Origin: Erwinia aphidicola
GTDB lineage: Bacteria > Pseudomonadota > Gammaproteobacteria > Enterobacterales > Enterobacteriaceae
NCBI RefSeq assembly: GCF_024169515.1
Contig: NZ_JAMKCQ010000001.1
Location: forward strand, 2,108,001 to 2,172,000
Reading direction: 5' to 3'
DNA length: 64,000 nucleotides
The translations under genes were made by a program, and so were the position numbers. Of the stretch, positions 45,468 to 64,000 are shown one piece after another (positions within the stretch are counted from its first letter, which is position 1; each line of letters starts with the position of its first letter). Under the pieces are notes generated by a model, which saw only the letters and a list, made by a program, of their open reading frames with translations, was not told where the DNA came from and ran no database searches.

Positions 45468-45476
45468 TATCCGTAG

Positions 45477-45502
45477 GGGGCGACCGCTGTTCTGGTCGCC
45501 CC
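45477..45502. repeat. Intergenic palindrome (GGCGACC type)
   Basis: GGGGCGACC and GGTCGCCCC form a perfect 9-bp stem with an eight-base loop between two convergent genes. Preceded by CCGTAG like the other copies. Confidence 0.8.
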
Positions 45503-45518
45503 GCCAGCCTCCACCGGT

Positions 45519-47361: not shown

Positions 47362-48099
47362 ATGTCAGAGCAAAAAAACGGAAGCACGCGCAGAGACTTT
47401 CTGCTGAAAACTATCACCCTCGCCCCGGCGATGGCGATTGGCTCCGCAGGGCTGGGTTCACTGGCCGCCGCTGCGCCCGCCGTGGCGAAAGAGGCCGCTA
47501 AAACCGGGCCACAGCAGGCGCGCGAGTACCAGCCAACGTGGTTTACCCCCGAAGAGTATGCCTTTCTGCAGGCCGCCGTTGCGCGCCTGATCCCGGCCGA
47601 TGAACGCGGCCCTGGCGCGCTGGAAGCGGGCGTGCCCGAGTATATCGACCGCCAGATGAACACCCCGTATGCCACCGGCGCCAACTGGTACATGCAGGGG
47701 CCGTTCCACCCGGATGCCGATAAAGCGCTGGGCTACCAGCTGCCATTGACCCCGCGTGATATCTATCGCCTTGGCCTGGCCGATGCCGATGCGCTGGCAA
47801 AACAGCAGCATGGCAAGGTGTTTGCTGCGCTAAGCGGCGAGCAGCAGGATGCGCTGTTACAGGCGCTGGAAGCGGGCAGCGTGGAGCTGAAACAGCTCCC
47901 TGCCAAAACCTTTTTCTCCTTCCTGCTGCAGAACACCCGCGAAGGGTTCTTCAGCGACCCGATCCACGGCGGCAACCAGGGGCTGGTCGGCTGGCAGCTG
48001 ATTAACTTCCCCGGCGCGCGCGCTGATTTTATGGACTGGGTGGAGCGCGGCGAGCAGTACCCGCTGCCGCCGGTGTCAATTCGTGGGGAAAGAGCATAA
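47362..48099 (+). CDS. Gluconate 2-dehydrogenase gamma subunit (subunit 3 family)
   Basis: A 245-residue small subunit. The N-terminus carries a twin-arginine signal ([20 protein letters not shown] ending in AAAAPAVA), so the folded complex with its flavoprotein is exported by Tat. The mature part ([57 protein letters not shown]) is the gluconate 2-dehydrogenase subunit 3 domain. The ATG at 47362 follows AGAAGGCAATGTC. It is the first gene of a three-gene operon, two bases before the next start. Confidence 0.9.
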
Positions 48100-48101
48100 C
48101 C

Positions 48102-49886: not shown

Positions 49887-49896
49887 GGATAAGCAG

Positions 49897-51213
49897 ATGA
49901 AAAAGTTACTTCTTATTGCCCTGCTGCCGGGCATGCTGGCGTTTAACGCGCTGGCAGAGGATAGCGCGGCGGCTGAAATTCAGCGCGGTGAGTATCTGGC
50001 GCGCGCCGGGGACTGCGTGGCCTGCCACACCAAAGCGGGCGGCGAAGCATTTGCCGGTGGCCTGCCGATGGCAACGCCTATCGGCACCATTTACTCCACC
50101 AATATTACCCCGGACAAGCAGAGCGGGATTGGCGGCTACAGCTATGACGACTTCCAGAAAGCGGTGCGTCACGGCGTGGCGAAAAACGGCGACACGCTCT
50201 ACCCGGCGATGCCTTACCCGTCCTACGCGGTGGTCAGCGACGAGGATATGCAGGCGCTTTACACCTACTTTATGCACGGCGTTAAGCCGGTGAACCAGGC
50301 GAACAAAGAGAGCGACATTCCGTGGCCGCTGTCGATGCGCTGGCCGCTGGCGATCTGGCGCGGCGTATTTGCGCCGGACGTCAAGGCCTTCCAGCCGATC
50401 AAAGGGCAGGATCCGGTGCTGGCGCGCGGCCAGTATCTGGTTGAGGGCCTTGGCCACTGCGGCGCCTGCCATACGCCGCGCAGCATCACCATGCAGGAAA
50501 AAGCGCTGAACAACGAGGAAGGCAGTGATTACCTCTCCGGCAGCAGCGCGCCCATCGACGGCTGGACCGCGAGCAATCTGCGCGGTGATGGCCGCGACGG
50601 GCTGGGCCGCTGGAGTGAAGATGACCTGGTGCAGTTCCTGCGCATGGGCCGTAACGATCGCACCGCGGTATTTGGCGGTATGACCGATGTGGTACAGCAC
50701 AGCCTGCAGCACCTGACGCCGGAAGATGCGACCGCGATTGCACGCTACCTGAAATCGCTGGGGGCTAAAGATCCCAACCAGGTGGGCTTCACGCCGGATG
50801 ATGCAGTGGCGAAAGCGCTGTGGAAGGGCGACGACAGCAAAACTGGCGCATCAGTCTACGTTGACAGCTGCGCGGCCTGCCATAAAACCGACGGCAGCGG
50901 CTACCAGCGCTTCTTCCCGGAGCTGCGCGGTAATCCGGTGGTGCTGGCGGAAGATCCGACTTCGCTGATTCATATTGTGCTGAGCGGCGCACAGCTGCCG
51001 GGCGTCAAGGATGCACCAACCACCATCACCATGCCGGCCTTCGGCTGGCGCCTGAACGACCAGCAGGTCGCAGACGTGGTGAACTTTATCCGCACCAGCT
51101 GGGGCAATACCGCGAAGTCTGCGGTATCAGCCAGCGACGTGGCGAAAGTGCGCAAGGATGAAACGGTGGTCAATCAGCAGGGCAATGTTGATGTGGAGAA
51201 GTTGACGCCATAA
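49897..51213 (+). CDS. Tri-haem cytochrome c subunit of gluconate-type dehydrogenase
   Basis: A 438-residue cytochrome with a Sec signal peptide (MKKLLLIALLPGMLAFNALA). Three CxxCH haem sites are visible: CVACH at about residue 40, CGACH near 188 and CAACH near 326, each in a separate cytochrome c domain. It passes electrons from the flavoprotein to ubiquinone at the periplasmic face. It follows the flavoprotein after ten bases with a GGATAAG ribosome site. The three-gene set is the classic membrane gluconate or 2-ketogluconate dehydrogenase; which substrate is used cannot be told. Confidence 0.93.
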   Translation: MKKLLLIALLPGMLAFNALAEDSAAAEIQRGEYLARAGDCVACHTKAGGEAFAGGLPMATPIGTIYSTNITPDKQSGIGGYSYDDFQKAVRHGVAKNGDTLYPAMPYPSYAVVSDEDMQALYTYFMHGVKPVNQANKESDIPWPLSMRWPLAIWRGVFAPDVKAFQPIKGQDPVLARGQYLVEGLGHCGACHTPRSITMQEKALNNEEGSDYLSGSSAPIDGWTASNLRGDGRDGLGRWSEDDLVQFLRMGRNDRTAVFGGMTDVVQHSLQHLTPEDATAIARYLKSLGAKDPNQVGFTPDDAVAKALWKGDDSKTGASVYVDSCAACHKTDGSGYQRFFPELRGNPVVLAEDPTSLIHIVLSGAQLPGVKDAPTTITMPAFGWRLNDQQVADVVNFIRTSWGNTAKSAVSASDVAKVRKDETVVNQQGNVDVEKLTP

Positions 51214-51230
51214 CGTTGAGCTGGCCTTGC

Positions 51231-51330
51231 GGGTCGATCGGAAAAGATGATCGACCCCTACGGTTCGTGGGCATTTCCGGTTCGGAAAACCCGGCCGTTG
51301 TAGGGGCGGACCTTCTGTTTCGGTCCGCCC
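51231..51330. repeat. Two intergenic palindromes of the GTAGGGG family
   Basis: GGGTCGATC/GATCGACCC (51231-51257) and GGGCGGACC/GGTCCGCCC (51304-51330), each a perfect 9-bp stem with a nine-base loop. They lie between the convergent cytochrome and sgbE genes, with CCTAC/GTAGG at their inner edges. Confidence 0.85.
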
Positions 51331-51343
51331 GCCAATGGGCACT

Positions 51344-52042
51344 CTATTGCCCGTAATACGCCCCCGCCCCATGTTTACGCAGATAATGCTTATCCAGCAG
51401 CACCTGCTGCATATCGCGCATCCCCGGCGTCAGCTGGCGCGAGAAAATCCCCATATAGGCAATCTCCTCCAGTACCACCGCGTTATGCACCGCATTCTCC
51501 GCGCTGCTGCCCCAGGCAAACGGGCCGTGGGCGTTGACCAGCACCGCCGGGATCGCCGTCGGGCTGATGCCGCGTGACTGGAAGGTATCAATAATCACCT
51601 CGCCGGTGTTGTGTTCGTAATTCTCCGCGATCTCCTGCGCTGTCATCAGACGGGTGCAGGGAATGGTGCCGTAGAAATAGTCGGCGTGGGTGGTGCCCCA
51701 GGCGGGGAGATCCAGCCCGGCCTGCGCCCAGATGGTGGCGTGGCGCGAATGGGTATGAACAATGCCGCCGATATCGTTAAACGCACGATACAGCGCCAGA
51801 TGGGTCGCGGTATCAGAAGAGGGCTTTTTGCTGCCCTCCACGGTGCGGCCGCTCTCCAGCTCCACCACCACGATATCGTCAACGGTCATAACGTCATACT
51901 CCACGCCGGAGGGTTTGATCGCCACCAGCCCGCTGTTGCGGTCAATGGCGCTGACGTTGCCCCAGGTGAAGGTCACCAGACGGTGGCGCGGCAGGGCCAG
52001 ATTGGCCGCGAAAACCTGCTGTTTCAGCGTTGATAAACTCAT
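51344..52042 (-). CDS. sgbE: L-ribulose-5-phosphate 4-epimerase (SgbE/UlaF type)
   Basis: A 232-residue class II aldolase-like epimerase that converts L-ribulose 5-phosphate to D-xylulose 5-phosphate, using a divalent metal bound by the histidines in HTHSRH and the downstream His in [10 protein letters not shown]. Other family text is [20 protein letters not shown] and [16 protein letters not shown]. AraD, UlaF and SgbE are very similar; the name SgbE is given for the operon context. It is the last gene of the yia-sgb operon and overlaps sgbU by four bases. Confidence 0.92.
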
Positions 52043-52896
52043 TGTAAGCCTCCTTCCTGCATTTTCTGTTCAATCCAGCGCCGCGCCTGCACAATCTCGG
52101 CCACCGGCTCCTCGGCTTTTTCTGTCCACATCTCAATCAGAAACGCGCCACGATAGTTCAGCTGTTTCAGCGTGCGGAACACGCCAACAAAATCGACGCA
52201 GCCTGCGCCAAACGGCACGTCACGAAACTGCCCCGGCGAGCTGGCGGTGACGGGCTGCGTATCTTTGAGGTGGATAGCGGCGATGCGATCAATGCCCAGC
52301 GCCAGCTCGGCGGCGACGTCATTGCCCCAGGCGGTCAGATTGCCGACGTCGGGATAGACGGTGAACCACGGCGAGGCCTGCTGCTTATCCCAGTGTTTCC
52401 ACTTGCTGATGGCGTTGATAAATTCGGTATCCATAATCTCGACGGCCAGCATCACCTGCGCGGCTGCGGCGCGATCCACCGCCCACGCCAGCCCTTCAGC
52501 GAAGCGCGCCACCGTCCCCTCGTCATGCGCTTCGTAGTAAACGTCGTAGCCCGCCAGCTGGATGGTGCGGATGCCAACGTCCTTTGCCAGCTGGATCGCC
52601 TGCTCCATCAGGCTATAGGCCTGCTGGCGTATCTCCGGGTCGTGACTGCCAAACGGGAAGCGGCGGTGGCCCGAGAGGCACATCGACGGGATGGTCACGC
52701 CGGTTTCCATCATTGCGTTGACCAGCGAGAGGCGCTGCTCTTTGCTCCACTGCAGGCGCGACAGCCGCAGATCGGTTTCGTCCACCGACATCTCGACAAA
52801 GTCGAAACCGCAGGCTTTTGCCAGCGCCAGACGTTCCGGCCAGCTCAGGTGAGGCGGCAGGGCTTTTTCATAAATTCCCAGCGGATGTTGGCGCAT
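52039..52896 (-). CDS. sgbU: L-xylulose-5-phosphate 3-epimerase
   Basis: A 285-residue TIM-barrel epimerase that converts L-xylulose 5-phosphate to L-ribulose 5-phosphate. The text ([85 protein letters not shown]) is that of the SgbU/UlaE family. Metal ligands are expected among the Glu and His in these blocks. It begins two bases after sgbH. Confidence 0.93.
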
Positions 52897-52898
52897 GA

Positions 52899-53561
52899 TT
52901 ATTGTCCCCAGATGCTGGCAATGGCCTGATGGAAGTCGGCGGCGGTCGCCCGCCCGTCGGCGCTTTCGCTCAGCGCCCGCCCGACGATAAACGCCTTCAC
53001 GTCGATGTTTTTAAACTGCGGCAGTTCGTCCGGGGTAATGCCGCCGGTGACCGACAGGGCAAAGCCCAGATCGGACAGGGCTTTCATCGCGTCCAGATCC
53101 TGCTGGCTCCACTGCTGGCCGCTGGCCTGGGCATCGCGTCCACGATGGTAAATGGCCTGCGTCAGCCCCAGCTCGCGCCAGCGCTTAGCATCAGCCAGCG
53201 TCCAGTGGCCGAACAGCTCAATCTGAATGTCGCCCTGATGCTGGTGGGCCACCTCCAGCGCGCTGGCAAAGGTCGCCAGCGGGGCTGCGCAGATCACCGT
53301 CATCCAGTTGGCGCCGGCTTCAAACGCCAGCGTCGCCAGCGTCGCCCCGGCATCCGCCACTTTAAAATCGGCCACCAGGGTTTTCGCGGGCAGCTGCTGA
53401 CGCAGCTGGCGCACCGCGTCTATCCCGGCGCTGAAGCACAGAATGGTGCCGGCTTCGACAATATCGACCTGCTGATGCAGGCGCTGTGCCGTCTCCAGCG
53501 CGGCATCCAGCCGGGTGTGGTCGAGGGCCAGCTGAAGCTGGGGAACCCGGGAACGGCTCAT
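52899..53561 (-). CDS. sgbH: 3-Keto-L-gulonate-6-phosphate decarboxylase
   Basis: A 220-residue enzyme of the orotidine-phosphate-decarboxylase fold that yields L-xylulose 5-phosphate and carbon dioxide. The metal and substrate site DFKVADAG is intact, together with LALDHTRLDAALETAQRL, VEAGTILCFSAGIDAV and the phosphate-binding SVTGGITPDELPQF and FIVGRALS. The same family as UlaD and SgbH of E. coli; the operon favours SgbH. Its ATG overlaps the lyxK stop and is preceded by AGGAG. Confidence 0.93.
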   Translation of the reverse strand: MSRSRVPQLQLALDHTRLDAALETAQRLHQQVDIVEAGTILCFSAGIDAVRQLRQQLPAKTLVADFKVADAGATLATLAFEAGANWMTVICAAPLATFASALEVAHQHQGDIQIELFGHWTLADAKRWRELGLTQAIYHRGRDAQASGQQWSQQDLDAMKALSDLGFALSVTGGITPDELPQFKNIDVKAFIVGRALSESADGRATAADFHQAIASIWGQ

Positions 53562-55039
53562 GATGTGACTCCTTGTGTGGCGATCAGCGCCGCCAGTAGT
53601 TGCTGATAACGTTGATATTTTTTCTGATACAGGGCATGACGCTCGCTATCGGGCTGGTAGCTGACCATTTCGGGTACCAGCGCCTGCTGTGCCTGTTGCA
53701 GCGAGACATACGCCCCGGTTCCGGTCATTGCCGCCAGCGCTGCGCCCAGGCAGCCGCTCTCTTCGATCTGCGGGATCTCCACCGGCAGGCCGCTGGCGTC
53801 GGCAAACATTTGCATCCATACCGCTGAACGCGTCGATCCCCCGCTCAGGCGCAAGGCCTTGACCTGCGGGAAGCGTGTCAGAATGCGATTGAGGTGGGTG
53901 AGGTGGGAGAACACCACGCCTTCGTAGATCGCCTGCACCAGATGGCCGCGCTGGTGGCCCGCCTGCATACCGAAGAAGCTGGCGTGCAGGTCAGCCCCGG
54001 CGTTGCAGCCGTAGAGGAACGGCAGGAACAGCAGGGAACTCGCGGCTGGCGGTAGTTCCGCCACCCACTGATTAAGCAGGTCGTAGTCATCGATGCCCCA
54101 CTGCTGGCAAAACCACTCCAGATTGGCGGCCGAGGTCGGGCTGGCTTCGTGAATAATGTACTGGCCGTCAATGGCATAGCGGCCGTAAACAAACGGATAG
54201 TCGGCTTCGTCGCTGATGCGATCGGTAATCCCGCTGGTCACCGACCAGGTGCCCATGACGGCGTTCAGTCGGGTATCGTCATGCAGCCCGGCGCACAGCG
54301 CGGTAGAGACCACGTCGAACAGCCCACCGACCACCGGCGTGCCCGCGCGCAGTCCGCACAGGGCGGCCGCTTCAGCGCTGACATAGCCCGCCATGTCCGT
54401 TGGCCCGACAATCGGCGGCAGGGCAGGCAGAATATCGCCGATGCCGAGAGTTTCTGCCAGCGCGGCGGACCAGCCGCCCTGCTGCATGTCGTACAGGTTG
54501 GATTCGGAGATATTGGTCTCTTCGCAGGCCAGCTCTCCGGTCAGGCAGTAGCGCAGATAGTCATGGGCCATCAGCACGCTGCCGATCGCCGCGTAGCGCT
54601 GCGGTTGATGCTCCTTCAGCCAGCGCAGCAGTGACACCGGATGTCCGGTCCATAACGTCTGTCGGGTGAGCGGATATAGCGTCTGCGGCATGCCGTCACG
54701 CTGCCACTGCTGCACCAGCGCCAGCGCCCGGCGGTCGGAGGAGAGAATGCCGTTACCCAGCGGCTGCTGCTGTTTATCCAGCAGAAACAGCCCTTTGCCC
54801 TGCGCCGAAATGCCGACGCCGGCAATCTGTGCGGCATCCAGCCCGCTGCGTTTCAGCACCTCTGCGATGACCCGTGCGGCCTGCTGCCACAGCAGCGGCA
54901 TATCGCGCTCGGCCCAGCCCGGCTGCGGCACCTGCACCGGCAGCGTCTGGCGTGACACTGCCTGTTCGCGGCCCTGTGCGTCATACAGCCCGGCCTTAAT
55001 AAAGGTGCCGCCGCAGTCCAGCCCTAACCAGTAATTCAT
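53558..55039 (-). CDS. lyxK: L-xylulose/3-keto-L-gulonate kinase
   Basis: A 493-residue FGGY-family carbohydrate kinase. The N-terminal phosphate loop is LGLDCGGTFIKAGLYD, the second domain has MGTWSVTSGI and the C-terminal FGGY signature region reads GGSTRSAVWMQMFADASGLPVEIP. It phosphorylates L-xylulose and, in the diketogulonate route, 3-keto-L-gulonate. It overlaps the MFS gene upstream and sgbH downstream by four bases each, so the operon is tightly coupled. Confidence 0.93.
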   Translation of the reverse strand: MNYWLGLDCGGTFIKAGLYDAQGREQAVSRQTLPVQVPQPGWAERDMPLLWQQAARVIAEVLKRSGLDAAQIAGVGISAQGKGLFLLDKQQQPLGNGILSSDRRALALVQQWQRDGMPQTLYPLTRQTLWTGHPVSLLRWLKEHQPQRYAAIGSVLMAHDYLRYCLTGELACEETNISESNLYDMQQGGWSAALAETLGIGDILPALPPIVGPTDMAGYVSAEAAALCGLRAGTPVVGGLFDVVSTALCAGLHDDTRLNAVMGTWSVTSGITDRISDEADYPFVYGRYAIDGQYIIHEASPTSAANLEWFCQQWGIDDYDLLNQWVAELPPAASSLLFLPFLYGCNAGADLHASFFGMQAGHQRGHLVQAIYEGVVFSHLTHLNRILTRFPQVKALRLSGGSTRSAVWMQMFADASGLPVEIPQIEESGCLGAALAAMTGTGAYVSLQQAQQALVPEMVSYQPDSERHALYQKKYQRYQQLLAALIATQGVTS

Positions 55040-56331
55040 GCGGCCTCCCGGTGCTGCGCATCGCAGCGGGCTGGCAGCGTTAACGCCAGCAGTGAGGCAA
55101 TCGCCAGCGCGATCGCCAGGCTGTAGACCCCGGCATCTTTGCTGTACGCCACGATTAACACCCCGACCATATAGGGGCCGCAGAAGCCACCGAGGTTGCC
55201 CAGGGCGTTAATCACCCCGCGCGCACCGCCGGCCACTTCGGCATTAAACAGGCGTGGAGGAATGCTCCAGAACACCCCAGCCGCTGACTGGATAAAGAAA
55301 CCGCAGCCAACCAGCGCTGCGTAAGACCACCAGATATGCGCTTTCAGCACTACCGACAGCGCCATACACAGGGCAAAACCGGCCAGCGGCAGGGCGACGA
55401 ACAGCTTGCGGCGTCCGGTGGCATCCGACAGCGCGGAGAACAGGAACATGCCGAAAATCGCGCAGACATAGGGCAGGATCGCCAACATGCCGACCTGCTC
55501 CAGATTGCCGTGGGTCAGCCCTTTGAGAATGGTGGGTAGCCACAGGGTGTAGCCGTAGATCCCGGTCTGATAGAAGAAGTTCACCAGGATCAGCCGCCAC
55601 ATCACCGGCTCACGCATCACCTGACGCAGTGAGGCTTTACGGCTGTTTTTGCCTTTGATCAGCAGCTGCTCGTCGTGCAGGGTTTTGATCAGATACTGTT
55701 TTTCCGCCGCGGAGATCCACTTCGCCTCCTGCGGGCGGTTGCTGATGGTGAAATGCCACAGCGCCATGACAAACAGCGACAGCACACCCTCAACGAAGAA
55801 CAGCATGCGCCAGTCCCAGGCGGTAATGATCCAGCCGGAGAGCGGGGCGGTGAGGATCCCGGCGATCGGCACAAACATGATCACAATGGCGTTGGCGCGG
55901 CCGCGCTCGGCATCGGGGAACCAGTTACCGATCATCGTCAGCACCACCGGTAACATCCCGCCTTCGGAAACCCCCAGCGCAAAACGCAGCGCCAGCAGCT
56001 GATACTGATTGCTGGCGAGGCCGGTCAGCAGGGAGATTACCGCCCAGGCCAGCAGTGACCAGCCGATAAAGCGTTTACCGTTGCCGTAGACCGCCAGCTT
56101 GCCCCCCGGCACCTGTAAGAACAGATAACCGATAAAGAAGATGCCCCCGGCCAGTCCGGCCATTGAGGCGCTGATGCCGAGATCGGCATCCATCCCGCCC
56201 GGCATGGCAAAGGCGATATTGACCCGATCCATATAGGAAATAATGCAGGTGATCAGGATCGGCGGAATGATCCGCAGCCAGCGCAGAGACGGGATCCCTT
56301 CGCGGGCGAGGGTGGTAGACGTCAGGCTCAT
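55036..56331 (-). CDS. MFS transporter in place of the YiaMNO TRAP system
   Basis: A 431-residue carrier of the anion:cation symporter (hexuronate/phthalate) branch: YMDRVNIAFAMPGGMDADLGIS, GGIFFIGYLFLQVPGGKLAVYGN, ALGVSEGGMLPVVLTMIGNWFPDAERGRANAI. E. coli has the TRAP genes yiaMNO here; Klebsiella oxytoca has an MFS carrier, YiaX2, in its yia operon, and this gene holds the same place. The likely substrate is 2,3-diketo-L-gulonate or a related sugar acid. Twelve membrane segments are visible. GAGGATCGCT precedes the ATG. Confidence 0.88.
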   Translation of the reverse strand: MSLTSTTLAREGIPSLRWLRIIPPILITCIISYMDRVNIAFAMPGGMDADLGISASMAGLAGGIFFIGYLFLQVPGGKLAVYGNGKRFIGWSLLAWAVISLLTGLASNQYQLLALRFALGVSEGGMLPVVLTMIGNWFPDAERGRANAIVIMFVPIAGILTAPLSGWIITAWDWRMLFFVEGVLSLFVMALWHFTISNRPQEAKWISAAEKQYLIKTLHDEQLLIKGKNSRKASLRQVMREPVMWRLILVNFFYQTGIYGYTLWLPTILKGLTHGNLEQVGMLAILPYVCAIFGMFLFSALSDATGRRKLFVALPLAGFALCMALSVVLKAHIWWSYAALVGCGFFIQSAAGVFWSIPPRLFNAEVAGGARGVINALGNLGGFCGPYMVGVLIVAYSKDAGVYSLAIALAIASLLALTLPARCDAQHREAA

Positions 56332-56343
56332 AGCGATCCTCTT

Positions 56344-56814
56344 TTAGTCAGCGAGATCGGCCACAGGGATCTTTACCACCACCTTGCGGATCGCCTCAGG
56401 GGCATGCAGCGCGCAGTTTGGGCGGTGAATATCCTGCGGGAAGAACACCGCGAAGTTTCCCGGCCGCATCCGCAGCAGGGTTTCATTGGCGGCATCCTGG
56501 TAAAAGATGATGTCGCGTACGTCATCATACGGCTGGTGGATCGCCGGTTCCGCTCCCCCGGTGGAGACGCCCATCAGCTCATTGCCGCAGACCAGGTACT
56601 GCACATCGATAAAGTGCCGGTGCGCCTCCGGGTAGTTGTCGCCGTGCGGGGCGGTTTGCAGGTCAAGCACCTGCACCTGCCAGCCGGTTTGGCTGTCCTG
56701 GTAACGCCCGGCGGCCATCGTGGCCAGATCGTGGCGGGCTAAATAGTCGATGGCGCGCGCAATCGCAGGCGGATAGTGACGGGCATCGGTGTGGTTGATA
56801 TGGCCAAAAATCAT
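56344..56814 (-). CDS. yiaL: YiaL (YhcH/YjgK/YiaL) family protein
   Basis: A 156-residue beta-barrel protein of the YhcH/YjgK/YiaL family, probably a metal-binding sugar isomerase or mutarotase-like helper. Conserved parts are LDLQTAPHGDNYPEAHRHFIDVQYLVCGNE, LRMRPGNFAVFFPQDIHRPN and KVVVKIPV; the histidines in AHRHFID and DIHRPN would bind metal. It lies 14 bases after yiaK, as in E. coli. The reaction is not settled. Confidence 0.92.
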   Translation of the reverse strand: MIFGHINHTDARHYPPAIARAIDYLARHDLATMAAGRYQDSQTGWQVQVLDLQTAPHGDNYPEAHRHFIDVQYLVCGNELMGVSTGGAEPAIHQPYDDVRDIIFYQDAANETLLRMRPGNFAVFFPQDIHRPNCALHAPEAIRKVVVKIPVADLAD

Positions 56815-56828
56815 GCGGTGTACTCCCG

Positions 56829-57824
56829 TTACAGTGCCTGGATGCGTGCCCAGACGCGTTCATCCACCGGAATGCCGAGGCGCTGGTTTTCAGCGCGAAT
56901 ACCGGGGAACTTGTGGCCCGGCAGGCGGATCGCCTGCTGGTCGGCGCGCTCGGCACCGGTAATCGATTCGCGGATGCGCGCCAGCTTGCTGTCGCGGGTG
57001 GCGCCGTCGATCAGGCGATCGACATCGATGGCGATAAAGACCTGGGAGATGCCAAATTCGTCGCCGTTATCCTCGGTCACTTCGGTAACGGAGGCCCCGT
57101 CAGAGAGCAGGGTGGCGACCATATCCAGCACGATTGAGAGCGCGGAACCTTTCCAGTAGCCCATGGGCAAAATGCGGCGATTTTCTTCTATCGTGGCGGG
57201 ATCGCGAGTGTATTGGCCGTCATTGTCAAAACCGCCGTCGACCGGCAGGGTTTTGCCCGCCAGGCGGTTCACTTCCAGCATGCCGTAGGAGAACATCGAC
57301 ATCGACATATCGACCATGGTGATCGGTTCGCCCGGCACGGCAACGATTAGCGGGTTGGTGCCGATGGCGCAGCTTTTGGCCCCCCACGGCGGCATAACCG
57401 CAATGGAGTTGGTCCAGCAGACGCCGATATAGCCTTTTTCTGCTGCCTGCCAGCCGTAGCTGCCGCCGCGCATCCAGTGGTTGGCATTACGCAGCGCCAC
57501 CAGACCGATCCCGTGGCCGTCGGCCAGTTCAATGGCGCGATCCATCATGCTGCGGGCGGTAAGATTGCCTATCGCACGGTGCGCATCCCACTGTTCGATC
57601 GCCCCCAGCGAGAGGATCTTTTCGGCTTCTGCCTGCGGCACGATATGCCCGGCGTCCAGCTGCTGGATAAAGCGGGGAAAACGATTCACCCCGTGGGAGT
57701 AAACGCCGCTCTCGCTGGTGTCAGCGAACAGGGTGGCACAGCTTTCGGCTTTCTCTGCTGGCACACCGCGCGCCAGTAACACCCGCAGAAACTCCTGTTT
57801 CAACTGCTGATAGCTGATTCTCAT
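56829..57824 (-). CDS. yiaK: 2,3-Diketo-L-gulonate reductase
   Basis: A 331-residue NAD(P)H-dependent enzyme of the malate/L-lactate dehydrogenase-like (LDH2) family that reduces 2,3-diketo-L-gulonate to 3-keto-L-gulonate (E. coli DlgD, 332 residues). Signature stretches are [18 protein letters not shown] with the proton-relay histidine, [29 protein letters not shown] and [18 protein letters not shown]. First gene of the seven-gene operon down to sgbE, with an IclR-type operator and a CRP-like site upstream. Confidence 0.95.
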
Positions 57825-57863
57825 ACTGCTGTTTCTCCCCGGAGATGGCTTTATTTCAATATA

Positions 57864-57878
57864 TGGAATGTCGTTCCA
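57864..57878. promoter_or_regulatory. Probable YiaJ (IclR-type) operator upstream of yiaK
   Basis: TGGAATGTCGTTCCA has the TGGAA-N5-TTCCA form typical of IclR-family operators and lies 40 bases before the yiaK start. A related site (62793-62809) sits between the ABC operon and yiaJ, sharing GAA, GTT and CAAA positions. YiaJ is the only IclR gene seen here. Confidence 0.6.
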
Positions 57879-57970
57879 AATAAATCCTATGCGCCTGACG
57901 AGGACAAGTCAAAGAAATGAGCTGTGATTTTGTCTTTATAAAACAGTGAGATAAAAATAGTATTGGGTTC

Positions 57971-57986
57971 TGTGATCGGTAACACA
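57971..57986 (-). promoter_or_regulatory. CRP-like site upstream of yiaK
   Basis: TGTGATCGGTAACACA has one perfect half-site and one with a single change (ACACA). It lies about 150 bases before yiaK. Catabolite control of the yia operon is known in relatives. Confidence 0.45.
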
Positions 57987-58014
57987 TCGGGTGAAGTCGT
58001 GGCGTGGGGAAGCC

Positions 58015-58091
58015 GGGTCAGGCATGCCTGACCCCGACAAAAAAACGCATCGCGGCCATCCCTTACCGTCAGGGCGTGGCACGCCTTGCCC
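58015..58091. repeat. GCATGC-core palindrome with a decayed second copy
   Basis: A perfect 20-base palindrome at 58015-58034 (core AGGCATGCCT) and a degenerate relative at 58072-58091 (GGGCGTGGCACGCCTTGCCC). Same arrangement as the pairs near 19.5 and 22.4 kb. It separates the lactonase gene from the yiaK promoter and may end ABC operon transcription. Confidence 0.75.
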
Positions 58092-58096
58092 GGCCG

Positions 58097-58942
58097 TTAA
58101 CCGACGATCGCCCGGTACAGCGAGGTGGTGGCGGTAATATACAGCTCATTACCCTGCGGGCCGCCGAGGGTGCAGTTTGACACCCGTTCCGGCACCGCGA
58201 TCTTGCCGCGCGTCACGCCTTTGCTGTCGAAAATAATCACCCCGTCGGCGCAGCTACAGTAAAGATTGCCGCGCGGATCCACGCAGAAGCCATCCGGAAA
58301 ACCGGGGGCCACCTCGGCAAACAGCCGCCCGCTGCCCAGCTCCCGGCCATCTACCGGATAGACCCTGAGCTGGCGGCGACCCAGCGTCGGGAAGTCAACC
58401 ACCGACATATCCGCGACATACAGCAGGCTTTCATCGGGCGAAAAGGCCAGCCCGTTGGGGCGTTGCAGATCGCTGGCGGCGATGGTCAGCCGCTGTTCGA
58501 TCGGATCGAAGCAGTAGAGATAACAGCCGATCACCTGGCTGTGCGCGTGATAGCCCTCCTCGTCGCTGACGATGCCGTAAGGCGGATCGGTGAACCAGAT
58601 CGTGCCATCGGATCGCACCACGACGTCGTTCGGCGAGTTGAAACGCTTGCCGTCCACCTTCTCCACCAGCAGCCTGACGCTGCCGTCATGCTCGGTGCGG
58701 CTGATGGCGCGGCGGCCATGCTCGCAGCTCACCACCCGGCCCTCATTATCCAGGGCATTGCCGTTGGCGTAGTGCGACGATGCCCGCCACAGGCTGACTT
58801 CGCCATTGCGCTGCCAGCAGAACATGCGGTTACCCTTCACGTCGCTGAACACCACTGCATCCTGGCCGGGCAGCCATACCGGCCCCTCAGCCCAGATGGC
58901 CGGGGAGCAGAGTTTTTCCAGCGTCAGATTATCGGTCTGCAT
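58097..58942 (-). CDS. SMP-30/gluconolactonase family lactonase
   Basis: A 281-residue six-bladed beta-propeller. The metal ligands of the family are visible: the glutamate in AEGPVW near the N-terminus, the asparagine in RFNSPNDVV, and the aspartate in LLYVADMS. Other typical text is GTIWFTDPPYGI and NGLAFSPDESL. It should hydrolyse a sugar lactone, but some members act on other esters. It begins 10 bases after the binding-protein gene and is preceded by GGAGG, so it is the last gene of the ABC operon. Confidence 0.9.
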   Translation of the reverse strand: MQTDNLTLEKLCSPAIWAEGPVWLPGQDAVVFSDVKGNRMFCWQRNGEVSLWRASSHYANGNALDNEGRVVSCEHGRRAISRTEHDGSVRLLVEKVDGKRFNSPNDVVVRSDGTIWFTDPPYGIVSDEEGYHAHSQVIGCYLYCFDPIEQRLTIAASDLQRPNGLAFSPDESLLYVADMSVVDFPTLGRRQLRVYPVDGRELGSGRLFAEVAPGFPDGFCVDPRGNLYCSCADGVIIFDSKGVTRGKIAVPERVSNCTLGGPQGNELYITATTSLYRAIVG

Positions 58943-58952
58943 AGCGCCTCCG

Positions 58953-60053
58953 TTACTTCACGCCCCAGATAGTTTTGTAATGCCCCTGATAATCATTCTG
59001 CGGGTCGTAATGGTTCTGCGGCCCGCCGTCGCTGCCGATATTATCGCGGGTGATCAGATGCGCGGGGGTGACGTAACCTGATGGCGGCTGCCCGGCAAAG
59101 GCGCGGTTAAACTCATCCAGCAGCTGCCAGCCGTGCAGTTTCAGCGGCTCGGCCACCGTGCCGATCTGGCTGTCGCCGCTGCGAATACGCTGGAAGGCAG
59201 AGATTGACCCATCCCCGGCGGAGATATTAAACGGCGCGTTTTTGCCGCCTTTGCCGGCGGTCTTCAGCGCCGGGGCCATAAAGTCAAAGTAGAGGTCGTT
59301 GATCGCCAGCGCGTACTGGAAGCTGTCGCCGTATTTTTGCAGCAGGCTGAAGGTCATCGACGGCATACGGTTGGCGGTATCGGCCAGCGGGGTATCGATA
59401 AACTCCACCACTTTACAGCCGCTGCATTTCTCAATTTCCTGCTTCATCGCGTTGGCCTTATCCAGGGCAATTTGATACAGCGAATCGGTGAAAATCAGCA
59501 CCTGCGCCTTGCCACCGGACTGCACCACCGCATACTGCGCGGCAAGGCGGGCGACCTCGTTAGAGTCTGAGGTGATGTTGGCGACCACGTTATATTTGGC
59601 AATCGGTCCCGGCTGCGGTTCGGCGTGCCAGGCCATCAGCACGATTTTTTGCTGAACCGCTTTTTTCAGCGGAATTTTCGCCACGTTCGGATTCCAGCCG
59701 CCAATAACAATGCCGTCAGGGCGCTGGGCGATCGCCTGATTGAGCGCCGCCAGCTGATCTTTCACCGAGCCGCCACCGTCGAGGGTTTCCAGCTTCCAGC
59801 CCGCCGCCGCCGCGGCTTCACTCAGCCCCTGCTGCACGCCCTGCACGCCGCCGTTTTTCATATCAGAGGCGATAAAAATCACCTTCTTATTCTTTTGCAG
59901 GGTCGGGCCGGTCGTCGGGCCGTCCCACTCTGTGACGCTGGCAGTGGCTTTGGTGACCGCCGCCGTGGCCCGATCGAGATAGCTGTCGGCCCAGGCGGGC
60001 AGCGAACCTGCCAGCAGGGCGCCAAGGGTCAGAGCAAGAAGATGACGTTTCAT
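58953..60053 (-). CDS. Periplasmic sugar-binding protein of an ABC importer
   Basis: A 366-residue protein with signal peptide MKRHLLALTLGALLAGSLPAWA. The mature chain has the periplasmic-binding-protein type 1 fold of sugar importers (KKVIFIASDMKNGGVQGVQQGLSEAA, LNQAIAQRPDGIVIGGW, ALAINDLYFDFMAPAL). A CSGC cysteine pair near residue 215 is unusual and may form a disulfide. The ligand cannot be named; context suggests a sugar acid or its lactone. Its start overlaps the permease stop by four bases. Confidence 0.9.
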   Translation of the reverse strand: MKRHLLALTLGALLAGSLPAWADSYLDRATAAVTKATASVTEWDGPTTGPTLQKNKKVIFIASDMKNGGVQGVQQGLSEAAAAAGWKLETLDGGGSVKDQLAALNQAIAQRPDGIVIGGWNPNVAKIPLKKAVQQKIVLMAWHAEPQPGPIAKYNVVANITSDSNEVARLAAQYAVVQSGGKAQVLIFTDSLYQIALDKANAMKQEIEKCSGCKVVEFIDTPLADTANRMPSMTFSLLQKYGDSFQYALAINDLYFDFMAPALKTAGKGGKNAPFNISAGDGSISAFQRIRSGDSQIGTVAEPLKLHGWQLLDEFNRAFAGQPPSGYVTPAHLITRDNIGSDGGPQNHYDPQNDYQGHYKTIWGVK

Positions 60054-61150
60054 AAGGTACTCCCTGGAGTGAGGGTTTTCTGGTTATTGTCAGGAGTGGT
60101 AGCCGGAGCGGTTTGACTGCGCACCACGGCCTTTTGATTCAACATCCGGCGACGCTGGGCGTAACCGGCGAGGGTGATGGAGAGCAGCAGGGTGGCGCCG
60201 TTAAACAACGGTTCAACCCAGAAGTCGCCGCCGAACTGCTGGATGCCGGCAATGCCGATTGCCAGGATGGCGATGCCGACCACGGTGCCCCAGACATTCA
60301 CGCGTCCGGGGCGAATGGTGGTACTGCCGAGGAATGCACCCACCAGCGCAGGCAGCAGGTAATCCATGCCGACGCTGGCCTGACCAACGCCCTGTTCGGC
60401 GGCGATTAGCACCCCGCTGAAGCCGGTCAGCACGCTGGAGGCGATAAAGGCACCGATGGTAAATTTATTCACCGCAATACCGTTCAGCCGCGCCGCCGCA
60501 GGGTTACCGCCTACGGCATACATGCAGCGGCCAAGCGGGGTGTGTTCGGTGATCAGCCACAGGATAATGGCCACGGCCAGTACGTAGAACGCGCCGATTG
60601 GGATACCGAAGATTTCGGTATGATGCAGGGCGGTAAAAGCATCAGGCAGATCGCCGACGATCTGGCGGCCGCCGGAGTGCCACAGCGCCACGGCGTACAG
60701 CACGGTGCCGGAGCCCAGGGTAGCCACGAAGCTATCGATATCGGCCAGCGCCACCAGAATGCCGTTCAGCAAGCCGTAAACGGCGGAGATGGCCAGTACG
60801 GTCAGCACCGCCATCTGCCAGGAGAAGCCATATTCCACCTGTAAGGTGATGGCGAGGATATGCCAAAGCACAATACCAAAGCCGACGTTCAGGTCGATTT
60901 TGCCAACAATCATCGGAATGGTGGCGGCCAGCGCCAGCAGGGCAATTTTGGCCTTACTGGCGAGGATCGCCTGTAAGGTCAGCATGCTGGCAAATGAGGG
61001 CGACAGTAAGGAAAACAGCAGGGTGAGCAAAATACACAGCAGCAGCAGGCCGTAGCGGGTGACGATCTGCATCAGCCACGCGGCGGGGCCGTGCTCGCTG
61101 AGGCTGACCCGCTGTTCCAGCGCGGTAGACTTCACGGATGTTTTGGACAT
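60050..61150 (-). CDS. ABC sugar importer permease (RbsC type)
   Basis: A 366-residue inner-membrane subunit with eight to ten membrane segments, of the branched-chain/ribose permease family (KIALLALAATIPMIVGKIDLNVGFGIVLWH, YAVGGNPAAARLNGIAVNKFTIGAF, PALVGAFLGSTTIRPGRVNVWGTVVGIAIL). The ATG at 61150 with GCAGGAG is preferred to the GTG at 61168. It should form a homodimer with the twin-domain ATPase encoded just upstream. Confidence 0.92.
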   Translation of the reverse strand: MSKTSVKSTALEQRVSLSEHGPAAWLMQIVTRYGLLLLCILLTLLFSLLSPSFASMLTLQAILASKAKIALLALAATIPMIVGKIDLNVGFGIVLWHILAITLQVEYGFSWQMAVLTVLAISAVYGLLNGILVALADIDSFVATLGSGTVLYAVALWHSGGRQIVGDLPDAFTALHHTEIFGIPIGAFYVLAVAIILWLITEHTPLGRCMYAVGGNPAAARLNGIAVNKFTIGAFIASSVLTGFSGVLIAAEQGVGQASVGMDYLLPALVGAFLGSTTIRPGRVNVWGTVVGIAILAIGIAGIQQFGGDFWVEPLFNGATLLLSITLAGYAQRRRMLNQKAVVRSQTAPATTPDNNQKTLTPGSTL

Positions 61151-61191
61151 AGCAGCTTCTCCTGCCACCGTTGGGAGGTGGCGTTAATCAT

Positions 61192-62718
61192 TCAGGCGGT
61201 GGCGACAGGGGTTTCGTGGCTGGCAGAGGCCAGTTCGAGTAAGTTGGCAAAGGTGACGCGTTCATTTTTCAGTTCACCCACCACCTGACCACGGTTAAAC
61301 ACCAGCGCGCGGTTGCAGATATGGGCGATCTCTTCGAAGTCGTTGGAGATCACCAGCACCGCCACGCCGTCGGCCAGCGCTTTATTCAGCAGGTGATAGA
61401 TCTCTTCCCGTGCGCCGACATCGACGCCAGCGGTGGGATCTTCGAGGATCAGCAGCGGGGCATTGAGGTGCATCCAGCGCGCCATCACCACTTTTTGCTG
61501 ATTGCCGCCGGAGAGGGCGCTGATGTCGAGGTTGACGTCTTTCGGACGGACATCGAACAGCTGCACTTTCCACCAGCTGGCCCCGATTTCGGCGCGGCGG
61601 CCGTAGCGTGACAGCAGGGCATGGCCGCTGGCGCAGGGATTAATAAACAGGTTTTCGCGCACGCTCATCGACATCACCAGGCTTTCGCCAGTACGGTCGC
61701 CTGCCACCAGAGAGATACCTGCGGCCATCGCCTGCTGCGGCGACTGCGCGTCATACCGTTTGTCCCGGAACTGAATGTTGCCGCCGCTGCGCTGGCGCAG
61801 GCCAAACAGCAGGCGACCAATCTCCTCCTGCCCGGCACCGCGCAGACCGGCCAGCGCCAGCATCTCGCCGGGTTGCAGGCTGAAGGAGACCGGGCCGACC
61901 TCATCAATACACACCTGGTCGAGAGCCAGTACCGGATCTTTGCCTGCCGGCAGGGCTTCACGCCGGTCGCCGTCGATCGCTTCTCCGACGATCATTTCCA
62001 CCAGATTGCGCAGGGTGTATTGCGCCGTCATCCCGCCCGCCACCCGTTTGCCGTCGCGCATTACGCAGACGCGATCGGCAATCTCTATCACCTCATCCAG
62101 ACGATGAGTGACGTAAATCATCCCGACCTTCTTACTTTTCAGATGGTTGATCACGCTGAACAGGTGGCGCACGTCGTTGGCGGGTAGCGAGGCGGTGGGC
62201 TCATCCAGCACCAGTACTTCGGCGTTGACCGCCACGGCACGGGCAATCGCCAGCAGGGATTTTTCGGTACGCGACAGCTCAAATACGCGGGCGTCCGGAT
62301 CGAGTGCGATGCCGACCTCCTCCAGCGCCGCACGCGAACGTTCACGCACCGCACGCCAGTCAATCAGCCCCAGACGGCGGGTAAATCCCATCACCAGCGC
62401 CATATTCTCCGCCACGGTCATCCACTCAATCAGCCCGAGATCCTGATGGATAAAGGCGATCGGTTGCTGACGGGCGGTTTTTAAACTGGCGGCAGAAGCG
62501 ATGCTGGTATGTTGAAAACGGATCTCCCCGCTGTCGCGGGCATAGACTCCGGCCAGCACTTTGATCAGCGTGGACTTTCCGGCACCGTTTTCCCCCAACA
62601 GGGCGACCACTTCGCCAGGGAAAACCTCCAGACTGACATCGTTAACAGCGATATTGCCGCCAAAGCGTTTGGTGATATGGCTCAGAGTAAGAACCGGCGT
62701 ACCGGGTGTATGCTGCAT
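61192..62718 (-). CDS. ABC sugar importer ATPase with two nucleotide-binding domains (RbsA type)
   Basis: A 508-residue ATPase. The first domain has Walker A LLGENGAGKSTLIK, a signature LSRTEKSLLAIARA and Walker B VLVLDEPTASL. The second has a relaxed Walker A (LAGLRGAGQEEIGR), a perfect signature LSGGNQQKVVMARW and Walker B LLILEDPTAGVDVG, where ED replaces the usual DE. The ATG at 62718 follows GCAGGAGGC. First gene of the ABC-lactonase operon, divergent from yiaJ. Confidence 0.93.
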   Translation of the reverse strand: MQHTPGTPVLTLSHITKRFGGNIAVNDVSLEVFPGEVVALLGENGAGKSTLIKVLAGVYARDSGEIRFQHTSIASAASLKTARQQPIAFIHQDLGLIEWMTVAENMALVMGFTRRLGLIDWRAVRERSRAALEEVGIALDPDARVFELSRTEKSLLAIARAVAVNAEVLVLDEPTASLPANDVRHLFSVINHLKSKKVGMIYVTHRLDEVIEIADRVCVMRDGKRVAGGMTAQYTLRNLVEMIVGEAIDGDRREALPAGKDPVLALDQVCIDEVGPVSFSLQPGEMLALAGLRGAGQEEIGRLLFGLRQRSGGNIQFRDKRYDAQSPQQAMAAGISLVAGDRTGESLVMSMSVRENLFINPCASGHALLSRYGRRAEIGASWWKVQLFDVRPKDVNLDISALSGGNQQKVVMARWMHLNAPLLILEDPTAGVDVGAREEIYHLLNKALADGVAVLVISNDFEEIAHICNRALVFNRGQVVGELKNERVTFANLLELASASHETPVATA

Positions 62719-63052
62719 GACAGCCTCCTGCAACTCCTGGTGGGCATTCAACGCGGCGTGGTTAGGAAAAAAGCACCGCAATATTCCAATATGCGAAATC
62801 AAGTTTCAAAAATACTATTCTCAGTTGCAGCGGAAAGCAAAGGCACGGGTGTTTTATTTGTTTAGATAAAACAATGATTTATTTTTGATGTTGTGGAATT
62901 GTGATGGACAGCGCACTTCTGCAGCGGGCGCCTGCGGGTGAAATTCTGCCTAAAACGGCGCTGAAACAGGGTTCCATGTTCACAGTGCAGGGTGCATGGG
63001 GTAACATCGGGCCACTCCCCGTTGCGGGGCAGGAACTTAAGGGGAAGTGTGG
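62719..63052. promoter_or_regulatory. Divergent control region of the ABC operon and yiaJ
   Basis: A 334-base gap. It contains CGAAATCAAGTTTCA at 62794-62808, related to the palindrome before yiaK, and the inverted repeat GTTTTAT-N8-ATAAAAC at 62851-62872. Both are candidate binding sites for YiaJ. Promoter boxes are not clear. Confidence 0.5.
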
Positions 63053-63850
63053 ATGAGCGTGAAGGACGATAAGAAAGACAAGCCGCTGGGCACCCAGAGC
63101 CTGTTTCGTGGCCTTCAGTTGATTGAACTGTTAAGCAACTATCCGAACGGCTGCCCGCTGGCCACTCTGTCTGAGCTGTCCGGAATGAATAAAAGTACGG
63201 TACACCGCCTGTTGCAGGGGCTGCACAGCAGCGGCTATGTGACTCAGGCACCGTCGCCGGGCAGTTATCGTCTGACCACTAAATTTATCTCCGTCGGGCA
63301 GAAGGCGCTCTCGTCGCTGAACGTGATCCACGTTGCGGCGCCGCATCTGGAAAAACTCAATCTTGAGGTCGGTGAAACCGTCAACTTCTCCAGCCGCGAA
63401 GATGACCATGTGATCCTGATTTACAAGCTGGAACCGACCACCGGCATGATGCGGACCCGCGCCTATATTGGCCAGCATATGCCGCTTTACTGCTCGGCAA
63501 TGGGCAAGATTTTTATGGCCTGGGGCAGCGAAGATTATCCCGCGCAGTACTGGCAGAGCCATCAGGACACTATCCAGCCGCTAACGAAAAATACCATCAC
63601 CACGCTACCGGAGATGCTGGACGAGCTGAAAAATATTCGTCAGCAGCAGACGGCGATGGACCGCGAAGAGAACGAGTTGGGCGTTTCCTGTATTGCCGCG
63701 CCGGTGTTTGATATTCAGCAGCGGGTGCCGTTCGCGGTATCGGTATCGTTACCGACGGCGAAACTGCAGCAGATTGGGGTGAAAAAACTGATGGCGCCGG
63801 TGGTGGCGACCGCCAAAGCCATCTCCGCCGAATTGGGCTTTCACGGTTAA
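63053..63850 (+). CDS. yiaJ: IclR-family regulator YiaJ (PlaR)
   Basis: A 265-residue repressor. The N-terminal winged helix (GTQSLFRGLQLIELLSNYPNGCPLATLSELSGMNKSTVHRLLQGL) and the effector domain (NFSSREDDHVILIYKLEPTTGMMRTRAYIGQHMPLYCSAMGKI, MDREENELGVSCIAAPVFD) are very close to E. coli YiaJ/PlaR, which controls the yia-sgb operon. In E. coli it is directly divergent from yiaK; here the ABC-lactonase operon lies between, and YiaJ is divergent from that instead. The ATG at 63053 is preferred to an in-frame GTG six bases upstream. Confidence 0.94.
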   Translation: MSVKDDKKDKPLGTQSLFRGLQLIELLSNYPNGCPLATLSELSGMNKSTVHRLLQGLHSSGYVTQAPSPGSYRLTTKFISVGQKALSSLNVIHVAAPHLEKLNLEVGETVNFSSREDDHVILIYKLEPTTGMMRTRAYIGQHMPLYCSAMGKIFMAWGSEDYPAQYWQSHQDTIQPLTKNTITTLPEMLDELKNIRQQQTAMDREENELGVSCIAAPVFDIQQRVPFAVSVSLPTAKLQQIGVKKLMAPVVATAKAISAELGFHG

Positions 63851-63861
63851 TGCATCATCCC

Positions 63862-63887
63862 GGGGCGGCCCGTGTTGCGGTCGCCTC
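63862..63887. repeat. Decayed intergenic palindrome (GGCGACC type)
   Basis: GGGGCGGCC and GGTCGCCTC pair with two mismatches around an eight-base loop, between the convergent yiaJ and LysR genes. A degenerate member of the family listed at 36872. Confidence 0.6.
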
Positions 63888-63890
63888 GCT

Positions 63891-64000
63891 TTATTCAATT
63901 GTTAATTTCTCCAGCGTGTTCAGCAGGGCATCCACCTTCGGCGTCAGCTGCTTTTTACGTGGCCACACCACGTACAGCGGTAAACCCGGCACGCTCAGCT
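63891..64000 (-). CDS. C-terminal end of a LysR-family regulator, rest outside window
   Basis: Only the last 35 residues are present (LSVPGLPLYVVWPRKKQLTPKV, then DALLNTLEKLTIE and a TAA stop). The segment PLYVVWPRKKQLTPKV is the typical final strand and helix of the LysR effector domain (usually YLVYPRRRHLSPKVRAF). The gene converges on yiaJ. Nothing can be said about its target. Confidence 0.7.
   Translation of the reverse strand, partial: LSVPGLPLYVVWPRKKQLTPKVDALLNTLEKLTIE

Follow-up and report, generated by a model that had tools for sequence, protein, structure and literature searches.

An ABC importer and an SMP-30-family protein joined to the yia/sgb genes of Erwinia aphidicola, a candidate route for dehydroascorbate uptake

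Gene content of the yia/sgb locus

We examined the yia/sgb locus of Erwinia aphidicola within a window of 64,000 nucleotides (nt) (assembly GCF_024169515.1, contig NZ_JAMKCQ010000001.1, positions 2,108,001 to 2,172,000). Twelve genes occupy positions 51344-63850 of this window (Table 1). The regulatory gene yiaJ, on the forward strand, diverges from the rest: it faces the genes for the ATPase, permease, and binding protein of an ATP-binding cassette (ABC) importer and for a predicted lactonase of the SMP-30 family, followed by yiaK, yiaL, a major facilitator superfamily (MFS) carrier gene, lyxK, sgbH, sgbU, and sgbE. The ABC and SMP-30 genes, here called the block, separate yiaJ from yiaK and share the strand of yiaK; the MFS gene takes the place of yiaMNO. 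In E. coli K-12, plaR (yiaJ) directly faces yiaK, as an earlier note on this DNA had said, and yiaMNO follows yiaL.

Genes were identified by NCBIfam cut-offs, Pfam matches, and protein identity to E. coli K-12. The gene order and positions given in the earlier note are correct, and the identities that it called secure agree with the curated models and with the K-12 comparison. The pathway enzymes YiaK, SgbH, SgbU, and SgbE all exceed their family cut-offs, and YiaK is the only dehydrogenase in the operon. A CUT2-type sugar ABC importer is encoded in full, with a PF13407 binding protein, a PF02653 permease, and an RbsA-type ATPase. The open reading frame of the ATPase, as listed, reaches 62802 (TTG start); an ATG at 62718 lies behind an AGGAGG-like site. 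The best NCBIfam model for YiaJ is KdgR, whose cut-off it does not reach.

The same note held that an MFS carrier replaces the tripartite ATP-independent periplasmic (TRAP) carrier YiaMNO. The substitution stands, with the MFS gene in place and no DctM-type TRAP gene found in the whole genome, but it is not a novelty: Klebsiella pneumoniae yiaKLX1X2PQRS is described as having the MFS carrier YiaX2 instead of a TRAP carrier (Campos et al. 2008, cited in PMC4324149). By sequence, the nearest solved relatives of the Erwinia MFS protein are sialin and the D-galactonate transporter, a likeness that would be expected of a sugar-acid carrier, and it is 68-76% identical to the MFS proteins beside yiaX1-type genes in five other genomes.

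Table 1. Genes and predicted operators of the Erwinia yia/sgb locus
Feature	Position	Strand	Evidence
sgbE, L-ribulose-5-phosphate 4-epimerase	51344..52042	-	NF009002, 452.2 bits (cut-off 386); 75% identity to E. coli SgbE
sgbU, L-xylulose/L-ribulose-5-phosphate 3-epimerase	52039..52896	-	NF009689, 492.9 (cut-off 200); 78% to E. coli SgbU
sgbH, 3-keto-L-gulonate-6-phosphate decarboxylase	52899..53561	-	NF009831, 363.1 (cut-off 294); 62% to E. coli SgbH
lyxK, FGGY sugar kinase	53558..55039	-	PF00370/PF02782; 63% to E. coli LyxK; no NCBIfam equivalog above cut-off
MFS carrier, yiaX2 position	55036..56331	-	PF07690
yiaL, YhcH/YjgK/YiaL family	56344..56814	-	PF04074; 37% to E. coli YiaL
yiaK, 2,3-diketo-L-gulonate reductase	56829..57824	-	NF009750 equivalog, 605.5 bits (cut-off 316); 75% to E. 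coli YiaK
Predicted YiaJ operator before yiaK	57854..57878 (core 57864-57878)	-	TGGAACGACATTCCATATATTGAAA; one of two genome-wide matches
SMP-30/gluconolactonase-family lactonase (predicted)	58097..58942	-	PF08450, 150.5 bits (cut-off 26.3)
Periplasmic sugar-binding protein of ABC importer	58953..60053	-	PF13407, 110.9 bits
ABC permease, CUT2 type	60050..61168	-	PF02653, 85.8 bits
ABC ATPase, RbsA/XylG kind (sugar-type)	61192..62718	-	
Predicted YiaJ operator before ABC operon	62784..62808	-	TGAAACTTGATTTCGCATATTGGAA; one of two genome-wide matches
PlaR-box-like palindrome, yiaJ side	62962..62976	+	TGAAACAGGGTTCCA; 1 mismatch to TGAAACNNNGTTTCA
yiaJ (plaR), IclR-family repressor	63047..63850	+	75% over 257 aa to E. 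coli PlaR

Predicted YiaJ operators

According to work on E. coli PlaR, the plaR-yiaK spacer was the most strongly bound of the probes tested, and both L-ascorbate and D-galacturonate release the protein from the yiaK promoter (PMC6958661). The PlaR box published there, ATnTGAAACnnnGTTCAnTT, is termed 21 bp long and printed with 20 letters. By comparing the E. coli spacer with both sites of the window, we derived a 25-nt pattern, TGRAAYNNNRTTYCNYATATTGRAA. When up to 2 mismatches are allowed, this pattern occurs at two sites in the whole 4.93-Mb genome, both perfect, one before yiaK and the other before the ABC operon, and its reversed control gave 0. Promoter-like sites accompany these elements: one at 57912-57884 has the yiaK operator immediately downstream, one at 62809-62780 is overlapped by the predicted operator of the ABC operon, and one at 62979-63007 directly follows the palindrome on the yiaJ side. 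The two stretches hold 1 and 2 such sites, which are consensus matches only, against 0.4 expected per stretch.

Relatives share the pattern. It stands before the ATPase gene, with at most 1 mismatch, in all 28 divergent yiaJ/ATPase gaps examined and, with at most 2 mismatches, in 21 of 30 gaps between the SMP-30 gene and yiaK; both sets contain several species per genus, so the gaps are not independent. One resample of the same 2.4 Mb yielded no match within 2 mismatches and 4 matches with 3. The shorter 15-nt form TGRAAYNNNRTTYCA occurs in 17/30 of the SMP-30 to yiaK gaps (0.01 expected from resampled gaps), in 14/28 of the yiaJ/ATPase gaps (0.02 expected), and in 4/15 yiaJ/yiaK gaps from loci of other gene order (0.01 expected). 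By itself, the symmetric PlaR box TGAAACNNNGTTTCA at up to 3 mismatches proved too loose and was set aside, with 23 matches in the window where 16.6 were expected and 10 of 100 shuffles scoring as high. In the one genome with a detached block (G256), a 2-mismatch palindrome precedes the ATPase gene, which 4.5% of resamples equal.

The operator and promoter-like sites thus suggest two units under YiaJ control, one being the block and the other the yiaK genes, and the yiaK unit is perhaps also reached by read-through from the ABC operon. Features of the PlaR regulon are present, namely, a PlaR orthologue divergent from the operon and a PlaR-type operator at the promoter. To the account in the earlier note, the operators add a predicted co-regulation.

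Linkage of the block to yia genes in Enterobacterales

To follow the block across the order, we surveyed 394 Enterobacterales genomes, counting binding proteins as close relatives at ≥54% identity, SMP-30 relatives at E ≤1e-60, and yiaK orthologues at ≥69% identity. In this and the wider survey below, loci were screened for set gene and carrier types, and other neighbors are only partly annotated. An SMP-30 relative is encoded in 14 genomes, and a close binding protein is encoded in the same 14. A yiaK orthologue is present in 28 genomes, and the block occurs in 11 of these (odds ratio 78; Fisher p 9e-12, with no correction for kinship). In the other three block genomes (G094, G151, and G164), a yiaK-like match at 45-46% identity lies ~14-17 kb off, and lyxK/sgb-like genes at 48-62% identity lie near the block where they fall within the stretch. 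Ten of the 24 binding-protein matches are sister proteins at 42-46% identity, and 7 of these 10 neighborhoods, as read, hold no yia or SMP-30 match.

Among the 28 yiaK loci, an MFS carrier accompanies the block in 3 and a TRAP carrier does so in 7, while a TRAP carrier has the block 46 kb away in 1 (G256); an MFS carrier with a yiaX1-type gene and no block is found in 5, and a TRAP carrier alone is found in 12. The block is therefore an optional addition found with either carrier. We rejected the idea that the ABC importer replaces the TRAP carrier, given the 7 genomes in which both share one locus and the one in which they are kept apart.

Distribution of the importer family

The wider survey covered the best 80 of at least 542 binding-protein loci, comprising the first 47 named loci (L048-L094) and another 33 (L095-L127), mostly from rhizobia. 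The SMP-30 gene lies on the same strand within 400 nt of the binding-protein gene in 44 of the first 47, and 40 of them carry yiaK, lyxK, or sgbH. The earlier note had named rare co-occurrence of the two blocks as the finding that would count against it; this result and the coincidence of SMP-30 and binding protein in the order-wide survey show them to be frequent neighbors. The place of the block varies. It lies between yiaJ and yiaK in Erwinia, Pantoea, Serratia, Pectobacterium, Brenneria, Raoultella, and Kosakonia; after the TRAP genes and before lyxK in most Pasteurellaceae loci; after sgbU in Vibrio and Psychromonas; beyond yiaJ in L082; and directly after yiaK in four metagenome-assembled genomes (L073, L078, L081, and L085). 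It is also found in yia loci of a few alpha- and betaproteobacteria. That the block has been joined to yia genes repeatedly and in varied arrangements speaks for a function. The earlier note spoke of a regulon that had "gained" the importer and lactonase; a gain peculiar to this genome is rejected, the arrangement being widespread. Overall, the conserved linkage and the operator pair make it very probable that the block is a branch of 2,3-diketogulonate catabolism under YiaJ control.

At least seven loci (L051, L071, L072, L073, L078, L081, and L085) have no MFS or TRAP carrier of the screened kinds within the stretch; therefore, the ABC importer may serve alone there. Distances in the binding-protein tree track those of lyxK (Spearman 0.92, 35 rows), SMP-30 (0.84, 71 rows), and yiaK (0.77, 38 rows), with species kinship not removed. 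The binding protein of the window is 99% identical to that of L048, and tblastn located the protein on 175 plasmid records, at ~85% identity on 3 large Pantoea plasmids and below 60% on the other 172.

Several loci stand apart in their gene content. L056, L079, and L080 encode a close ABC importer with no SMP-30 or yia genes within the stretch, and L067 (Hafnia psychrotolerans) has yiaJ, the ABC genes, and SMP-30, but within 21 kb yiaK, lyxK, and the sgb genes are all absent. The Histophilus somni locus L087 has another, distinct ABC importer between the SMP-30 gene and lyxK, with an ATPase 32% identical to that of the window. YiaJ and the ribose permease RbsC are listed among the commonest genomic-island genes of Pectobacterium aroidearum (PMC9326479).

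None of the 33 remaining loci carries a yia marker; an SMP-30 relative occurs somewhere in 27 and stands beside the binding-protein gene, on its strand, in 3. Two rhizobial loci were scanned (L098 and L104), in which the importer genes lie near a GntR/IdnR-like regulator or near 2-hydroxyacid and idonate-type dehydrogenases, with SMP-30 more distant. The rhizobial relatives (L096-L112) may represent a sister importer that takes up another sugar acid.

Four of the 80 loci (L108, L115, L117, and L118) bring the related ABC importer and SMP-30 into the same stretch as a YncE-like beta-propeller gene and a PdxA-type gene; in L115 these are joined by genes for an MR_MLE dehydratase, a DHDPS-family protein, and an MFS protein 60% identical to that of the window. 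Ralstonia eutropha H16 reportedly degrades ascorbate to L-lyxonate by a route, said to have been described by Stack et al. in 2020, in which dehydroascorbate is hydrolyzed to 2,3-diketogulonate by an enzyme of the gluconolactonase family; its further parts are said to include a PdxA-type decarboxylase, an amidohydrolase, and a propeller-like protein. The propeller/PdxA loci resemble this reported route, which also passes through 2,3-diketogulonate. No amidohydrolase was seen among the neighbors scanned, and positions 45001-64000 of the window have no beta-propeller or PdxA match. A stable association of the importer with the propeller was sought in 200 Burkholderiales genomes and not found, the ABC relative being present in 5 and the propeller in 2.

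Structural features of the encoded proteins

The SMP-30 model (predicted local distance difference test [pLDDT] score, 91.6) is closest to the Xanthomonas gluconolactonase structure 3dr2, with 40-41% identity and a template modeling (TM) score of 0.89. Residues E19, N105, N163, and D217, the counterparts of metal and catalytic residues in human SMP-30, are identical in 71/71 aligned sequences. As modeled, the lactonase fold and site residues are intact, which we count in favor of dehydroascorbate as the substrate. The protein has no visible signal peptide; therefore, it would open the ring in the cytoplasm. Position 62 (N or H) was considered as a mark of specificity and discarded, as it does not track gene context. 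For the binding protein, the model (pLDDT, 91.2) has a ribose-binding-protein fold, with ~20% identity to solved relatives, and this predicted fold fits a ring-shaped ligand.

Two more SMP-30 family genes lie elsewhere in the genome, at 0.31 and 3.64 Mb (L001 and L002). Convergent with sgbE, at 47338-51213 on the forward strand, is a three-gene set with no NCBIfam model above cut-off. It resembles a membrane-bound sugar-acid dehydrogenase, with a small subunit of the twin-arginine translocation (Tat) type, a GMC-type oxidoreductase, and a multi-haem cytochrome c.

Candidate substrate and alternative explanations

Dehydroascorbate is the lactone that gives 2,3-diketogulonate by one hydrolysis. 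Because 2,3-diketogulonate is the compound on which the first enzyme of the cluster acts, an importer and a lactonase would need no further enzyme to feed this compound into the pathway. The release of PlaR by L-ascorbate (PMC6958661), the loci in which the ABC importer is the only screened carrier, and, as a second line, the propeller/PdxA loci also speak for dehydroascorbate. On balance, we lean toward the block being an uptake branch, under predicted repression by YiaJ, through which dehydroascorbate likely enters the cell and has its ring opened to yield the substrate of YiaK. The ABC importer would bring dehydroascorbate into the cell, and SMP-30 would open the lactone ring in the cytoplasm to form 2,3-diketo-L-gulonate. 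Reduction by YiaK, phosphorylation by LyxK, decarboxylation by SgbH, and epimerization by SgbU and SgbE would then lead to D-xylulose 5-phosphate, while 2,3-diketogulonate whose ring is already open would enter through the MFS carrier, as it does through YiaMNO in E. coli. The earlier note had proposed that a lactone such as dehydroascorbate enters by the ABC system and, once opened by SMP-30, joins the 2,3-diketogulonate route; its interpretation is partly supported overall: the gene identities, the conserved linkage to yia genes, and the operator sequences are shown, whereas we infer the lactone as substrate, the repression by YiaJ, and the order of the steps.

Several observations weigh against the dehydroascorbate reading. 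The perfect fit of the three source sites to TGRAAYNNNRTTYCNYATATTGRAA is circular because the pattern was drawn from them; the genome-wide count and the gaps of relatives are independent of that circularity. Nine of the 30 gaps between SMP-30 and yiaK lack the pattern, though 7 of those 9 hold the 15-nt core. The block is absent from 17 of the 28 yiaK genomes, and 3 of the first 47 loci have no SMP-30 (L056, L079, and L080), while 7 have no yia markers (those three and L067, L084, L086, and L093). The effectors of PlaR include D-galacturonate (PMC6958661), and the ribose-type matches of the modeled binding protein, at ~20% identity, name no ligand. Around some rhizobial relatives, the GntR-like regulator and dehydrogenase neighbors imply that the importer family is not tied to ascorbate alone. 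As for the other ascorbate route, the link is thin: within the Burkholderiales sample, only the genome chosen as its center has both the importer relative and the propeller. In both trees, which are midpoint-rooted, the four loci with a propeller are placed in the opposite half.

Enzymes of the SMP-30 family act on a broad range of lactones, and the block might belong to the YiaJ regulon while serving another sugar lactone or uronic derivative, such as L-gulonolactone, L-galactonolactone, or a galacturonate product, that SMP-30 opens and an oxidation encoded elsewhere brings into the pathway. The double response of PlaR to galacturonate and ascorbate (PMC6958661) would suit such a substrate, as would the idonate-type dehydrogenases near some rhizobial relatives. 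Yet YiaK, the lone dehydrogenase of the operon, needs 2,3-diketogulonate, and in three loci (L078, L081, and L085) yiaJ and yiaK are the sole screened genes beside the block, leaving this explanation unlikely.

It is quite unlikely that the importer takes up a plain pentose or furanose for LyxK, for example, L-xylulose or L-lyxose, and that SMP-30 has only a side role. The SMP-30 gene accompanies that of the binding protein in 14/14 genomes and 44/47 loci, and the same three loci keep yiaK with no lyxK in the stretch read; these facts stand against the fold of the binding protein, an ATPase of the ribose/arabinose/galactofuranose kind, and the name L-xylulose kinase in the E. coli record of LyxK, all of which a plain sugar would explain.

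The window's genome encodes four EIIC-GAT proteins (0.90, 0.95, 1.09, and 4.65 Mb), and the 3 that were scanned exceed the NCBIfam cut-off for the phosphotransferase system (PTS) ascorbate subunit IIC; therefore, this Erwinia may hold several Ula-like systems. Such UlaA-type proteins make ascorbate use plausible, and L-ascorbate affects PlaR (PMC6958661), so that the block could import reduced L-ascorbate, to be oxidized inside before SMP-30 opens the ring. However, the operon has no oxidase gene and a phosphotransferase route for ascorbate may already exist in the genome, which makes this very unlikely. That the genes are chance neighbors with no shared function is hardly credible despite the 17 yiaK genomes without the block, as the linkage recurs in different positions and lineages and the shared operator occurs nowhere else in the genome.

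We thus return to dehydroascorbate uptake, for which the block, a real and widespread extension of the yia/sgb pathway, is a good candidate. If true, this reading would provide a function for an ABC importer and a "gluconolactonase" whose listed relatives carry only generic names, and it would constitute a direct route for oxidized vitamin C, formed in damaged plant and animal tissue. Its predictions are simple: one ligand, one lactone, and one repressor. More tentatively, an ABC importer for dehydroascorbate and a dedicated cytoplasmic dehydroascorbate lactonase could form a non-phosphorylating vitamin C uptake module that is common to Enterobacterales, Pasteurellaceae, Vibrio, and some alpha- and betaproteobacteria and that plugs into two downstream pathways meeting at 2,3-diketogulonate. 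In open-licence literature, seen as listings and abstract openings, we found no paper that assigns the ABC/SMP-30 block a part in the use of ascorbate.

Comparison with known systems

The UlaABC route imports ascorbate with phosphorylation, uses the lactonase UlaG, and feeds 3-keto-L-gulonate 6-phosphate. It shares that intermediate with the yia/sgb route of the window, but its import step and lactonase differ and it is not encoded at this locus. The R. eutropha H16 route, as reported, is unlike the window in its downstream steps.

A close counterpart is E. coli yiaKLMNO-lyxK-sgbHUE under PlaR, with 75% identity between regulators, 62-78% between enzymes except YiaL, and a spacer that fits the same operator pattern. 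Unlike the window, K-12 has the TRAP carrier YiaMNO and neither ABC nor SMP-30 genes at that locus. A blastn search of 5,426 E. coli genomes gave no place covering 80% of window positions 58097-62000, where sequences below ~65% DNA identity would escape. The K. pneumoniae locus differs in having yiaX1 and, as described, no ABC or lactonase genes (PMC4324149). Three loci, from Raoultella, Kosakonia, and an Enterobacter sp. (L074-L076), have yiaX1, the MFS carrier, and the ABC block together. Klebsiella YiaX1 has been called chemotaxis-like (PMC4324149); the gene at the yiaX1 position of the Raoultella locus L075 (13587-14522) encodes a DUF4862 (PF16154) protein.

Histophilus somni HSM_1227-1240 has the same set with a TRAP carrier: dctQMP, rbs2ACB, gluconolactonase, xylB, sgbU, and araD (PMC3224263). 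These genes were listed as a putative exopolysaccharide locus and named accordingly; the section on the locus makes no link to ascorbate or YiaJ, and the text nowhere contains "ascorb" (PMC3224263). If the block does serve dehydroascorbate uptake, these genes, once listed for polysaccharide, would be reassigned to it.

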